64,000 nt of DNA from Polynucleobacter sp. AP-Latsch-80-C2. GTDB lineage: Bacteria > Pseudomonadota > Gammaproteobacteria > Burkholderiales > Burkholderiaceae. Positions within the stretch are counted from its first letter, which is position 1. Every line of letters begins with the position of its first letter. The translations under genes were made by a program, and so were the position numbers. The stretch covers positions 124,001-188,000 of the forward strand of contig NZ_JACVOY010000004.1 of the NCBI RefSeq assembly GCF_018882185.1. Reading direction: 5' to 3'. Below the pieces are notes generated by a model. That model was not told the DNA's origin. It did not search any database and saw only the letters and a program-made list of their open reading frames with translations. Of this stretch, positions 3,403 to 23,710 are shown in pieces.

Positions 3403-4248
3403 ATGAACTCAAGCTCAAATACCTTTAACCAGCAACTCCAGTCTGCATGGGCTTCCCAAGGCAGCATGCTGTGCGTTGGTTTTGACCCCGATCCAAAGCG
3501 TTTACCCCCGTCGCTTCAAGGGAAGCCCGAGGGCATCTTTGAGTTCTGTAGAGAAATCGCTGACGCTACTGCGGATTTGGTCTGCGCATTCAAACCCCAG
3601 TTCGCCTACTTTGCATCGCAAAGAGCTGAAGTCCAGCTAGAAAAGCTGATCCAACATCTAAAAGATAAATACCCGCATATTCCGGTGATTCTGGATTCCA
3701 AGCGCGGCGATATCGGCAGTACCGCGGACCACTATGCCATGGAAGTATTTGACCGATATGGCGCAGATGCAGTAACCGTTAGCCCCTATATGGGCTTTGA
3801 CACCATTGAGCCCTACCTTAAACACCTTGGCAAAGGGGTCATCGTCCTCTGTCGCACCTCTAACCCAGGCGGCTCAGATTTACAGTTCTTAAACGTATCT
3901 CCTGATGGTCAACCACTCTATCTCCATGTAGCGAAGTTAGCTGCAGAGAAATGGAATAGCTCAGGTCAAATCAGCCTCGTTGTCGGCGCTACCTTCCCCG
4001 AAGAAATTGCCAAGGTACGCGCCATCATTGGTGATATGCCTTTACTCATTCCGGGTATTGGAGCTCAAGGTGGCGACATCGATGCCACAGTAAAAGCAGG
4101 TGCTATTCCCAATAAACCCGGTACTGGCATGATCATTAATTCCTCTAGAGCCATTCTGTATGCCAGCTCAGGAAGTGATTTTGCAGAGGCAGCTAGAACG
4201 GTTGCCCTCAATACCCATGATGCGCTAAGAGCGGCTACAGCTAAGTAA
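3403..4248 (+). CDS. pyrF: Orotidine 5'-phosphate decarboxylase, type 2
   Basis: Decarboxylates OMP to UMP, the last step of de novo pyrimidine synthesis. The 281-residue length and the sequence around the active-site lysine ([17 protein letters not shown], Lys at about 100) place it in the longer type 2 PyrF subfamily found in betaproteobacteria, mycobacteria and Myxococcus. Also visible are [13 protein letters not shown] near the N-terminus and the phosphate-binding [10 protein letters not shown] near the C-terminus. Monocistronic, between the divergent corA and the convergent mtgA, 26 bases from the latter. Confidence 0.95.
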
Positions 4249-4274
4249 ATACTCTTAAGGGGGCTGGTTGCTGC

Positions 4275-5018
4275 TTACTTGCTAGTAGCACTCTTAGGTA
4301 TTGGAGTTAGCGCTACCCGATCCATATATTCCAAAATGAATTCCTGGCGGGTGGGGAAATGAATATTGGCTTTACGGCAATACTGCGTTTTATCAAAACA
4401 TTTAGGCGCCGGTAAAGCCGAAGCTAGCGCTGCAGACTGCTCACGGTCTAGCGCTGCCGGGGAAGTAGCGTAGTAATGCGCGGAAGCGGCACCGATACCA
4501 AAAATACCTTCACCCCACTCGACTGAGTTGAGGTAAATCTCAAACAAACGCTGCTTAGAAAGCGTCAGTTCTAACAAGCCAGTGATGATGAGCTCTTGAC
4601 CCTTGCGGAAATAATTTTGCTCTGAAGAGAGAAATAGATTTTTAGCAAGCTGCTGTGTAATGGTTGAACCACCCCGCAATGCAGTCGTTGCTTTATTACC
4701 AGTGCGCCGCTTCTGTTGATTCTTCTCCCAGGCTTTTTGCATGTCTTCAACACGAACGCCCTTATGTTGAAAAAAGATATCGTCTTCACTGACCAAAACC
4801 GCGCGCTTGAGATTCCCAGAAATTTTGTCGTATGGAGTCCACTTCGACTGAATGGGGCAAGACCAATGCCAAGTGCATAAGCGCCAGCGCTCCGCCCTCT
4901 GGAAGGCGGTACTGTCAGGGTTCAACGTAGTCCATAGGCCGATCTGTATAGCAAAATAGGCTTGCATTGCTAGGAAGCCACATAAAAGACATTTAATGGG
5001 ATAAGTAAACCAGCGCAT
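4275..5018 (-). CDS. mtgA: Monofunctional biosynthetic peptidoglycan transglycosylase
   Basis: Polymerises lipid II into glycan strands on the periplasmic side of the inner membrane. The 247-residue protein has one N-terminal membrane anchor (about 8-30) followed by the family 51 glycosyltransferase motifs: VSEDDIFFQHKGV with the catalytic Glu, GGSTITQQLAKNLF, RKGQELIIT, and FEIYLNSVEWGEGIFG. No transpeptidase domain, so it is MtgA and not a bifunctional PBP. It is the last gene of the mpl-to-mtgA run, 11 bases after aroE, an aroE-mtgA pairing seen in many betaproteobacteria. Confidence 0.94.
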   Translation of the reverse strand: MRWFTYPIKCLLCGFLAMQAYFAIQIGLWTTLNPDSTAFQRAERWRLCTWHWSCPIQSKWTPYDKISGNLKRAVLVSEDDIFFQHKGVRVEDMQKAWEKNQQKRRTGNKATTALRGGSTITQQLAKNLFLSSEQNYFRKGQELIITGLLELTLSKQRLFEIYLNSVEWGEGIFGIGAASAHYYATSPAALDREQSAALASALPAPKCFDKTQYCRKANIHFPTRQEFILEYMDRVALTPIPKSATSK

Positions 5019-16794: not shown

Positions 16795-17234
16795 TTAAGG
16801 ACGTGTGCCAGTTGGGAAGGGCCAGGCAGCAGCAGGATTCAACGCACTAGACGCTGGTGCAGCTTTCTTAGCCGCGGGCTTTTTTACAGCGGAGCCCGTT
16901 TTCTTCGCAGCAGGCTTACTTACTTTTTTTTTGCTACGCGCTTCTTTGCTACTTTTTTAGCTACTTTTTTAGCGGCTGGCTTTTTAGCAGCAGCTTTTTT
17001 AGCAGCAGGACGCTTCTTAGCTACTTTTTTAGCAGCTGGCTTTTTAGCAGCAGCTTTTTTAGCAGCAGGACGCTTCTTAGCAGCTACTTTTTTAGCAGCA
17101 GGCTTCTTAGCAGCTACACGCTTCTTAGCAGCAGGCTTCTTCTTAGCTACTTTTTTAGCAGCTGGTTTCTTAGCAGCTACTTTTTTCTTAGCAGCTGGTT
17201 TTTTTGCAGCAGGTTTCTTTTTGGCGATTGCCAT
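16795..17234 (-). CDS. Histone H1-like lysine/alanine-rich protein, interrupted by a -1 frameshift at a slippery site
   Basis: Low-complexity DNA-binding protein of the bacterial H1-like family (KKPAAKK/KKVA repeats), expected to coat or compact nucleoid DNA. The first frame runs from ATG 17234 to a stop at 16920-16922 (104 residues). In the -1 frame the sequence continues VSKPAAKKTGSAVKK and ends ALNPAAAWPFPTGTRP at 16795, the C-terminus I recall as conserved in Burkholderiaceae homologues. The switch point is A9 read as A-AAA-AAG then TAA; a -1 slip there gives a 146-residue product. The start at 17234 is chosen because AAGGAG lies 7 bases before it but 1 base before the in-frame ATG at 17240. 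Three readings: programmed frameshifting, a real null-like mutation, or a one-base homopolymer sequencing error. Confidence 0.82.
16924..16932 (-). other. Poly-A slippery site (A-AAA-AAG) in the H1-like gene
   Basis: Nine A on the coding strand give codons GCA AAA AAA AAG TAA. The heptamer A-AAA-AAG is the one used for -1 frameshifting in E. coli dnaX. Slipping one base back avoids the adjacent stop and joins the conserved tail frame exactly. A possible GGGCT/AGCCC stem begins about 25 bases downstream, further than usual for a stimulator. Confidence 0.6.
16961..17080 (-). repeat. Two tandem 60-bp copies inside the H1-like gene
   Basis: Positions 16961-17020 and 17021-17080 match at 59 of 60 bases by eye; the one difference is G at 16974 versus A at 17034. 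Each copy encodes 20 residues of KKPAAKKVAKKR-type sequence, so copy-number change keeps the frame. Confidence 0.85.
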
Positions 17235-17241
17235 AGTCATG

Positions 17242-22039: not shown

Positions 22040-22858
22040 CTAGCGGGAATCTAGTCCGTAAGGTAATTTTTCCTGAGAAATGCCTGTCTCTTTTTGGAAC
22101 TTTTTCCAATTAAAAAATATTCCCGGGTCAGTTTTTCGCTCTGGAGCGATATCGCTATGTCCTGCAAATTGCAGTTTTGGATACGAACTGCTTAATTTTT
22201 TAATCAAATTTGCCAGTACTTGATATTGCGCTTCCTCAAAAGGAGTATCGCCATCACCCTCCAGCTCAATACCAATTGAAAAATCATTGCATTTTTCCCG
22301 ACCGAAAAATGCAGAAACCCCAGCATGCCAAGCCTTGTTGTGTGTAGAGACAAATTGAATTAACTGACCTGAACGGGTAATTAAAAAATGACTGGATACC
22401 TTTTGAGCACCAATCTCCTCAAAATAGGGATGCGCAGTGGTATCTAAGTTGTTTTGAAAAAAATCAATGATGTATTGACTAGAGGCCTGACTTTTAAAAG
22501 CCCCCGGGGGAAGACTGATGTGATGAACCACCACTAAGTCAGGTGTCACGTTTTCAGGTCGACTATCTTGGTTTGGAGAAATTCTCCAAGTAGCATTGCC
22601 CAACCAACCCTGATGATCGAGTGCTTGCAGATGTTCTTTCGAGCAATAAAAACGGTCCTCCTTCACTAACGCATCGGACTTTGGAAGGTGTACTTGGCAG
22701 TACTGACAGAGAACCATTGCCTCTGGCTCAACCGCCGCCTTAGCCTTACGGGGATTGGATCTAGCGGATTGCTCGCGTTGAACTTTGGCCTGCTTATTGC
22801 CTTTAAGCCAAAAGTAAAACAGAGTAAAGCCTGCAATCAAGAGAAGCCACTTAAACAC
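22040..22858 (-). CDS. ampD: AmpD amidase fused to an N-terminal PP0621-like membrane/zinc-ribbon domain
   Basis: A 272-residue fusion. Residues 3-19 form a membrane helix followed by many basic residues, so the rest should stay in the cytosol; about 48-80 is a zinc-ribbon-like part with Cys51, Cys54, Cys72 and His76, as in PP0621-family proteins; about 92-268 is AmpD, the zinc amidase that cleaves the peptide from 1,6-anhydroMurNAc during murein recycling. AmpD ligands are visible as His112 in VHHISLPPG, His234 in GHSDIAP and Asp244 in KTDPG. AmpD is normally soluble and stands alone, with the PP0621 gene often next to it. Here membrane tethering at the entry point of muropeptides is plausible but inferred. 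Confidence 0.88.
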   Translation of the reverse strand: MFKWLLLIAGFTLFYFWLKGNKQAKVQREQSARSNPRKAKAAVEPEAMVLCQYCQVHLPKSDALVKEDRFYCSKEHLQALDHQGWLGNATWRISPNQDSRPENVTPDLVVVHHISLPPGAFKSQASSQYIIDFFQNNLDTTAHPYFEEIGAQKVSSHFLITRSGQLIQFVSTHNKAWHAGVSAFFGREKCNDFSIGIELEGDGDTPFEEAQYQVLANLIKKLSSSYPKLQFAGHSDIAPERKTDPGIFFNWKKFQKETGISQEKLPYGLDSR

Positions 22859-22861
22859 GGA

Positions 22862-23710
22862 TCATGCTCTTTGGAGAATGACTTCCAACACAAAACGGCT
22901 ACCGACATAAGCTAGCAATAAGGCAGTGTATGCACTGAGGACCCAGCGTATTGCCGCGCGCCCACGTAAACCCACTCTCCAACGGGCAATTAAGAGGCCA
23001 GCGAATAAAAACCAAGAGAGCAGCGCAAAAATAGTTTTGTGATCAAACACCAACGGCTTACCAAAGAGCGTTTGCGAAAACAGTAAACCAGAAAATACTG
23101 TCAGACTGAGTAAAGCAAAGCCAACATACAGTAAGTTAAACAAGAGGCTTTCCATGGTCATTAATGGGGGTAAGTCCTCTAACCAATGCGCTGCGCGACT
23201 ATTGGGGACAATGGCCAGCTGCCGATGCAAGGCACGGTCCTGAATACTCATCAACATTGCATGCATCGCTGCCAAACTGAGTAGGCCCACTGATATGGTT
23301 GCCACAATAAAGTGGCCCTTAAACCAAGGATCTGAAACCGCCTTTGGAGAAATCAAGGTGCCAGGAAATAGATTGGGCAAGATGGTGCAAATAAATGCAA
23401 ATAGAATGGCTACCCAGCGTAAGCTGGAGATAGGCAGAAACCAAGACTGAAACCAGTAAAAAGCCAAACCCACCCAGGCAATCAGGGATAAATCTTGGGC
23501 AAATCCAAATACAAAGCCTGAAGGCGTAAAAACAGAGTCATGTAATTGAATGCCATGAATAACCAAAGTCCCAAAGATAGCCGCCTGTATCAAGGCGCTT
23601 GAAGTAGGAGACTCCACGCCAGCCTTTGCTCTGAAGCTTAAAAAGAGCAAAAGAAGCAAATAAAGTGCACAAGGCAGATATCCGTAACTTGAGTAACCTA
23701 AAATGTCCAT
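22862..23710 (-). CDS. CcsA/YpjD-like cytochrome c assembly family membrane protein
   Basis: A 282-residue protein with about eight hydrophobic segments, matching the cytochrome c assembly protein (CcsA/HemX/YpjD) family by its HFIVATISVGLLSLAAMHAM stretch and a late DHKTIFALLSWFLFAGLL segment; conserved histidines in such segments bind or pass heme in relatives. The ffh-adjacent, divergent position is typical of the YpjD/CorE-like members in beta- and gammaproteobacteria, whose exact role is unclear. It is 3 bases upstream of the ampD fusion gene, so the two are cotranscribed. Confidence 0.8.
   Translation of the reverse strand: MDILGYSSYGYLPCALYLLLLLFLSFRAKAGVESPTSSALIQAAIFGTLVIHGIQLHDSVFTPSGFVFGFAQDLSLIAWVGLAFYWFQSWFLPISSLRWVAILFAFICTILPNLFPGTLISPKAVSDPWFKGHFIVATISVGLLSLAAMHAMLMSIQDRALHRQLAIVPNSRAAHWLEDLPPLMTMESLLFNLLYVGFALLSLTVFSGLLFSQTLFGKPLVFDHKTIFALLSWFLFAGLLIARWRVGLRGRAAIRWVLSAYTALLLAYVGSRFVLEVILQRA

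Follow-up and report, generated by a model that had tools for sequence, protein, structure and literature searches.

A genus-wide fusion of PP0621 and AmpD in Polynucleobacter predicts a membrane-tethered amidase

Introduction

AmpD is a cytosolic 1,6-anhydro-MurNAc-L-Ala amidase that in other bacteria is made as a protein of its own, as a rule not attached to anything. The cell wall fragments on which it acts are imported and either recycled or, with AmpR, sensed as a β-lactam signal. The Citrobacter freundii enzyme (PDB entries 1j3g, 2y28 and 2y2b) is an Amidase_2 protein with His/His/Asp zinc ligands and conserved Lys and Glu residues. Exported amidases of the same catalytic superfamily include AmiD, AmpDh2 and AmpDh3. 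Peptidoglycan fragments are described as entering the cytoplasm via AmpG, and a Neisseria strain mutated in ampD as accumulating MurNAc-peptides there (PMC6365954). Cytoplasmic location has been called a hallmark of AmpDs (PMC12323641).

The PP0621 family (NCBIfam NF041023) is little studied. Its members are small proteins with one N-terminal hydrophobic helix and a C-C-C-H/C metal-site pattern. Here we describe a gene of the freshwater bacterium Polynucleobacter sp. AP-Latsch-80-C2 in which a PP0621 domain continues into AmpD. The gene lies in a 64,000-nucleotide stretch of contig NZ_JACVOY010000004.1, hereafter the window.

Results and discussion

PP0621 and AmpD share one reading frame

The fusion gene occupies positions 22040..22858 of the reverse strand, starts with GTG and encodes 272 amino acids (ORF translation and NCBIfam). 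Measured from stop to stop, the frame has 273 codons and so exceeds the protein by a single codon, which places the predicted membrane helix at the extreme N terminus. Residues 1-77 (22628..22858, reverse strand) form the PP0621 domain, with Cys51, Cys54, Cys72 and His76 as a predicted treble-clef zinc finger. Residues 78-272 (22043..22627, reverse strand) form the AmpD amidase domain, with ligands His112, His234 and Asp244, and with Lys242 and Glu198 also conserved. The PP0621_fam model (NF041023) matches residues 3-77 (E 1.9e-18; 66.5 bits, cut-off 45) over positions 2-71 of 71. The AmpD PRK11789 model (NF008758) matches residues 78-263 (E 8.6e-78; 260.1 bits, cut-off 143) over positions 4-187 of 190. 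The two matches share a frame with no spacer between them. Thus, with both models above cut-off, the original prediction that the helix, C51/C54/C72/H76 and H112/H234/D244 lie in one frame is confirmed. In Pfam searches Amidase_2 also matched the protein (E 4.7e-30), and the LIM model reached residues 50-78 below its cut-off.

The N-terminal part has the model score, covering nearly the whole 71-position model, the single N-terminal hydrophobic helix and the C-C-C-H finger of the PP0621 family. Unlike free PP0621, it is not a separate small protein but runs directly, in frame, into AmpD. It is a PP0621 domain, not a free PP0621 protein. The remainder has the whole-model score, the His/His/Asp ligands and the Lys/Glu pair of AmpD. 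It resembles C. freundii AmpD in each of these respects and differs in that the Polynucleobacter chain adds a predicted N-terminal membrane helix and a predicted zinc finger. Both halves are known families, and the joined architecture is a variant of AmpD. Among the literature matches listed, which exclude most subscription journals, no title concerned a PP0621-AmpD fusion.

Upstream of the fusion gene is a CcsA-like cytochrome c assembly gene (22862..23710, reverse strand; assigned by Pfam and synteny). Three bases (22859-22861) separate the two genes, which are probably on the same transcript. Elsewhere in the window, near the nrdAB genes, positions 16920-17240 encode a 106-residue Lys/Ala/Pro-rich repeat protein of the AAKKP type, presumably histone-H1-like.

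Metal ligands are conserved and the finger is predicted to be a treble clef

Both models match all 32 aligned members of the genus, and C51, C54, C72, H76, H112, H234 and D244 are invariant in this set. In a phmmer alignment, H112, E198, H234, K242 and D244 fall opposite residues 34, 116, 154, 162 and 164 of C. freundii AmpD (1j3g). We take 34, 154 and 164 to be the zinc ligands of that enzyme, and 162 and 116 to be its catalytic Lys and Glu. The AmpD His/His/Asp set is kept in all 56 complete genus proteins; a strict ligand pattern missed two, and reading these showed the residues to be present in both. The C-C-C-H finger is kept in 55 of the 56, the exception (L020) having Asp for His. In two members of the class (L121 and L122) the fourth finger ligand is Cys, as would be expected of a metal site.

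An AlphaFold2 model of the fusion, built with 75 sequences, has a mean pLDDT of 94.6 and a pTM of 0.82. It contains a helix at residues 2-32 and a weak stretch at about residues 31-40 (pLDDT 65), with blocks at 93-98 across residues 41-110. Compared with crystal structures of AmpD, the amidase part gives TM scores (target) of 0.92-0.94; with the NMR entry 1j3g it gives 0.67. Going by the pTM of the whole fusion, the finger and AmpD may form one rigid unit. Modelled alone, the PP0621 part has a mean pLDDT of 83.3 and a pTM of 0.49. The finger was originally called a zinc ribbon, probably not the most fitting name: the CxxC...C...H/C arrangement and predicted fold instead fit treble clefs of the TRASH/FCS/eL24 type (2das, 2w0t and eL24 chains), albeit with weak scores (best Foldseek E 0.15; Z about 4). 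Hence, treble clef is the better guess from the model. Matches this weak are no evidence for a function shared with those fingers.

The fusion is found throughout Polynucleobacter

A PP0621 match is present in 178 of 186 Polynucleobacter genomes. The eight others are all less than 90% complete; when these eight were searched again with the full-length fusion, seven gave no match and one (G151) a 24-residue fragment. In 173 of the 178 genomes the match lies in a joined frame 264-326 codons long. These 173 comprise 145 of 150 listed rows and 28 genomes re-searched with the whole protein. The AmpD part was read directly in the 28 re-searched genomes and in 29 of the 30 loci L002-L031, L003 being cut by a contig end; the other listed rows are counted as holding AmpD because of their frame length. 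In four genomes contig ends cut the fusion (G118, G136, G158 and G169), and in G118, G158 and G169 the junction is still spanned. The single broken frame that a contig end does not explain (1/178) is in G004, a finished genome, where the two domains are in different frames at the junction (L061, about 3478-4291). This may be a real re-split, marking the link as dispensable, or a sequencing error.

Recovery of the same joined frame from 173 genomes also disposes of the idea that an assembly or sequencing artefact had joined two genes in the window. We found no support for such an artefact, give it practically no chance and reject it, the fusion being genus-wide. Equally, the combination of separate genes in close relatives and a frameshift in the window, which would point to two genes, is not what the 173 joined frames among 178 genomes show.

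Searching with the window protein gave 14 loci among named genomes; five of them are Polynucleobacter, and two more full-length matches (L137 and L143) are betaproteobacterial MAGs. In a 30-row tree of Ffh, NrdA and CcsA, made by a quick method and with some rows gappy, a branch with SH-aLRT support of 99 separates the six fused genus rows from the others. This fits a single fusion before the genus radiated.

PP0621 and ampD are separate neighbours in the rest of the family

In a sample of 150 genomes of the family, Burkholderiaceae, 117 from outside the genus had a PP0621 match. We paired 112 of these with a listed strong ampD match; the other five had no ampD among the matches listed. None of the 112 paired genomes has a fusion. 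The domain pair, sought across Polynucleobacter and its neighbours as the original prediction proposed, is therefore joined in 173/178 genus genomes and 0/112 paired family genomes. The separate genes are adjacent (within 300 bp) in 74 of the 112, 0.96-1.37 kb apart in 13 and 3.6-3.9 kb apart in 25. With adjacent genes in the family and a fusion across the genus, the proposed gene merger is borne out. In the loci read outside Polynucleobacter, PP0621 is its own protein, of 68-114 aa in alignment A3 (alignments A2 and A3 exclude L035, L037, L039-L041, L048, L049, L055, L056, L058 and L060). The window shares the order ffh, ccsA-like, PP0621, ampD, nrdA with the genus loci and with most of the family loci that were read. 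In genus g11 a gene separates PP0621 from ampD. Four family genomes have ampD and no PP0621 match (G195, G202, G203 and G308; loci L130-L133); in L131-L133 the ccsA-like gene and ampD are nearest to one another among the genes searched for.

An ATGA stop/start overlap is present in 8 of the 20 junctions read (L068, L069, L072, L073, L074, L076, L080 and L082), although in L082 the overlapping ATG is well upstream of the conserved part of ampD. Genes overlapping at ATGA are in different frames, so that joining them requires a net frame change and loss of the stop codon.

Several loci had the appearance of independent fusions and were rejected. In ten listed loci with frames of 222-534 codons, the length is an upstream extension of the open frame, and PP0621 ends normally; G680 was left out of that reading (a 768-codon frame with two internal stops and a score well under the cut-off). 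PP0621 also ends normally in G187, a family genome with a 473-codon frame. In G227, G290, G297 and G209 (297-434 codons) ampD is adjacent but in another frame. The same-frame adjacent pairs of G275, G249, G201, G531, G413 and G403 are separate open frames too short for a fusion; of these we read G275 and G201 at the stop, G531 and G413, with G249 and G403 left out. Finally, L148 gave an apparent match over 1-255, and its two genes are in different frames.

A two-component pair is the usual neighbour of PP0621 outside the order

The survey of the order, Burkholderiales, gave 201 PP0621 matches, about 50 of them outside the matches listed. For ampD, the counts in this and the preceding section rest on the stronger, listed AmpD rows. 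Outside the family there were 144 listed PP0621 genomes, 109 with a listed ampD and 35 without. Among the 109, ampD follows on the same strand, 2.5-12 kb downstream, in 79, is adjacent in 8 and lies at 1.2 kb in 1; in the remaining 21 it is distant, on the opposite strand or on a different contig. For the class outside the order, 86 of 132 PP0621 genomes were paired by hand, the other 46, with no listed ampD row, being left out. In none of the 86 is ampD within 12 kb downstream of PP0621 on the same strand; in G715 it is 3.8 kb upstream on the same strand. The premise of the original prediction, that PP0621 sits beside ampD in many relatives, is thus right for the family (74/112) but does not extend generally to the order (8/109) and the class (0/86 downstream).

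In family locus L077, the genes between PP0621 and ampD encode a HisKA/HATPase sensor kinase and a regulator with receiver, sigma-54 activator and HTH_8 domains. Both are below cut-off in each of the best 25 NCBIfam rows; the pair is PilS/PilR-like. We located such pairs by tblastn, using a single kinase and a single regulator as queries; as these are large families, the names rest also on position. A kinase and regulator lie between PP0621 and ampD in four family loci (L077, L078, L083 and L086) and in four of seven order loci read (L125, L126, L134 and L135). Two further order loci (L123 and L136) have nothing between the genes, and in L124 the pair follows PP0621 with ampD outside the stretch. 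For the class we read 20 loci, the top-scoring paired rows not otherwise read. The kinase follows PP0621 in 15 of these, with the regulator inside the stretch in 14; one miss, L168, is too short to tell. Of six further class loci, four (L117-L120) have the kinase after PP0621, and searches within 6 kb found neither kinase nor regulator in L121 and L122.

The two-component pair looks like the older neighbour of PP0621, with ampD appended in Burkholderiales and the pair dropped in several lines of Burkholderiaceae, a direction of change that we infer. Three stages can be compared in living bacteria. First, in many Burkholderiales, ampD is a few kb downstream of PP0621, the kinase and sigma-54 regulator filling the gap in most order loci read and in the four family loci. 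Second, in several Burkholderiaceae genera PP0621 touches ampD, in some cases through ATGA and in different frames. Third, in Polynucleobacter there is a single frame. Because the kinase follows PP0621 in 15/20 class loci and ampD is downstream in 0/86, loss of the pair would have preceded gene contact and then fusion. Probably, therefore, that loss brought PP0621 and ampD together, and one fusion followed. The two regulator genes would have been lost rather than gained, and a small indel at the stop/start overlap would have merged the frames in a single event that predates the radiation of the genus. As a fusion the case is clean, since its likely earlier steps (regulators between, touching genes, one frame) survive in living relatives.

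Fused proteins can imply, as a "Rosetta stone", that PP0621 and AmpD interact. We downgrade that argument because the two-component pair is the usual neighbour of PP0621 outside Burkholderiales. For the same reason we consider it doubtful that many Burkholderiaceae use free PP0621 as an adaptor for AmpD at the membrane, the pair being made covalent in Polynucleobacter; the older link to the two-component pair lowers the standing of this idea. Where the genes touch, they are probably translationally coupled; an adaptor would there recruit AmpD to the inner membrane, and a large bacterial group would then lack a freely cytosolic AmpD.

The amidase is predicted to face the cytosol

We judged topology from hydropathy and charge. 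The strongest hydrophobic segment of the window protein is residues 2-18 (22805..22855, reverse strand), a predicted membrane anchor with a basic stretch after it (hydropathy and alignment). The sole strongly hydrophobic stretch is N-terminal. Charge is more positive on the C-terminal side of this segment in 30 of 32 genus sequences, the bias being absent from the other two. By the positive-inside rule, more positive charge after the helix predicts a cytosolic C-terminal part. With one N-terminal segment and this charge pattern, the suggestion of a cytosolic amidase held at the membrane finds backing, and tethering of AmpD is, as a prediction from sequence, well supported.

The helix could instead be an export signal, making the amidase periplasmic like AmiD or AmpDh2/3. 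Export is predicted for two of four Chromobacterium "AmpD" proteins, one with an Amidase_3 domain (PMC12323641). In 30/32 genus sequences, however, the basic residues come after the helix and not before it, which predicts a cytosolic enzyme. The exported AmiD, AmpDh2 and AmpDh3 have lower identity to the fusion (27-32% in Foldseek alignments). The protein also has an AmpD equivalog score, and its genome, in which AmpG, NagZ and Mpl are present, encodes no other Amidase_2 protein. We consider export very unlikely.

Soluble AmpD might also be released, by an internal start near the junction or by proteolysis of the linker, with the amidase staying cytosolic. The linker, residues 21-46, varies strongly (mean identity to the window protein 17%), as release would allow. 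Moreover, the stretch from finger to active site contains, in 10 of 32 genes, an ATG in frame or some start codon preceded by a Shine-Dalgarno-like word. Conversely, another 10/32 counts against it: that many genes lack any start codon in this stretch, and none is common to all 32. Separately started AmpD is thus not genus-wide. Cleavage in the linker, for its part, would leave the finger attached to AmpD. Release of soluble enzyme is, in our judgement, unlikely.

A predicted tethered AmpD and the recycling pathway

The window genome encodes a single Amidase_2 protein alongside AmpG, NagZ and Mpl. Together with the charge pattern, this supports a cytosol-facing, tethered AmpD, its localisation and any coupling to AmpG being predictions. 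Our main reading, with a probability of about 0.8, is that the genus-wide fusion makes AmpD a single-pass, inner-membrane-tethered enzyme facing the cytosol. The N-terminal helix would insert N-out/C-in, and the finger would bind zinc and fold beside AmpD. AmpD would then cleave the peptide off anhydro-muropeptides at the membrane surface, at the point of their delivery by AmpG. Any lasting advantage might lie in capturing imported muropeptides locally or in regulation by the finger. A tethered AmpD allows a direct test of whether this recycling step takes place at the membrane, next to AmpG, and provides the PP0621 family with a concrete candidate partner.

That nearness to AmpG brings a benefit is conjecture. 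Of 41 genus genomes, 39 have an AmpG match above cut-off. The remaining two, G032 and G046, are finished and show pieces of ampG only, yet keep a fusion frame of 270 codons. AmpG delivery is thus not needed for retention of the fusion, and these two genomes without intact ampG weaken the case for a nearness benefit.

The same two genomes lend weight to a serious rival, namely that the frames were joined by chance after the two intervening genes had gone, and that the fusion is passive and tolerated. The tether would have no function in recycling, and PP0621 would keep an unrelated job of its own, which perhaps stems from the older two-component link. The older neighbourhood agrees with this (kinase in 15/20 class loci, ampD downstream in 0/86), as does the occurrence of ampD without PP0621 in members of the family. 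Against it, helix and finger are conserved across the genus, with one unexplained broken frame in 178; that conservation would, however, also fit a constrained role of PP0621's own. We rate a passive fusion at somewhat below an even chance. Under it the protein would still be tethered.

As to the remnants of ampG themselves, in G032 the gene is matched in three pieces (C1:1452237-1453222). In G046 a start fragment, positions 3-48 of 417, lies at C1:1815999-1816136 inside an open frame of 13411 codons, and this giant gene may have replaced ampG.
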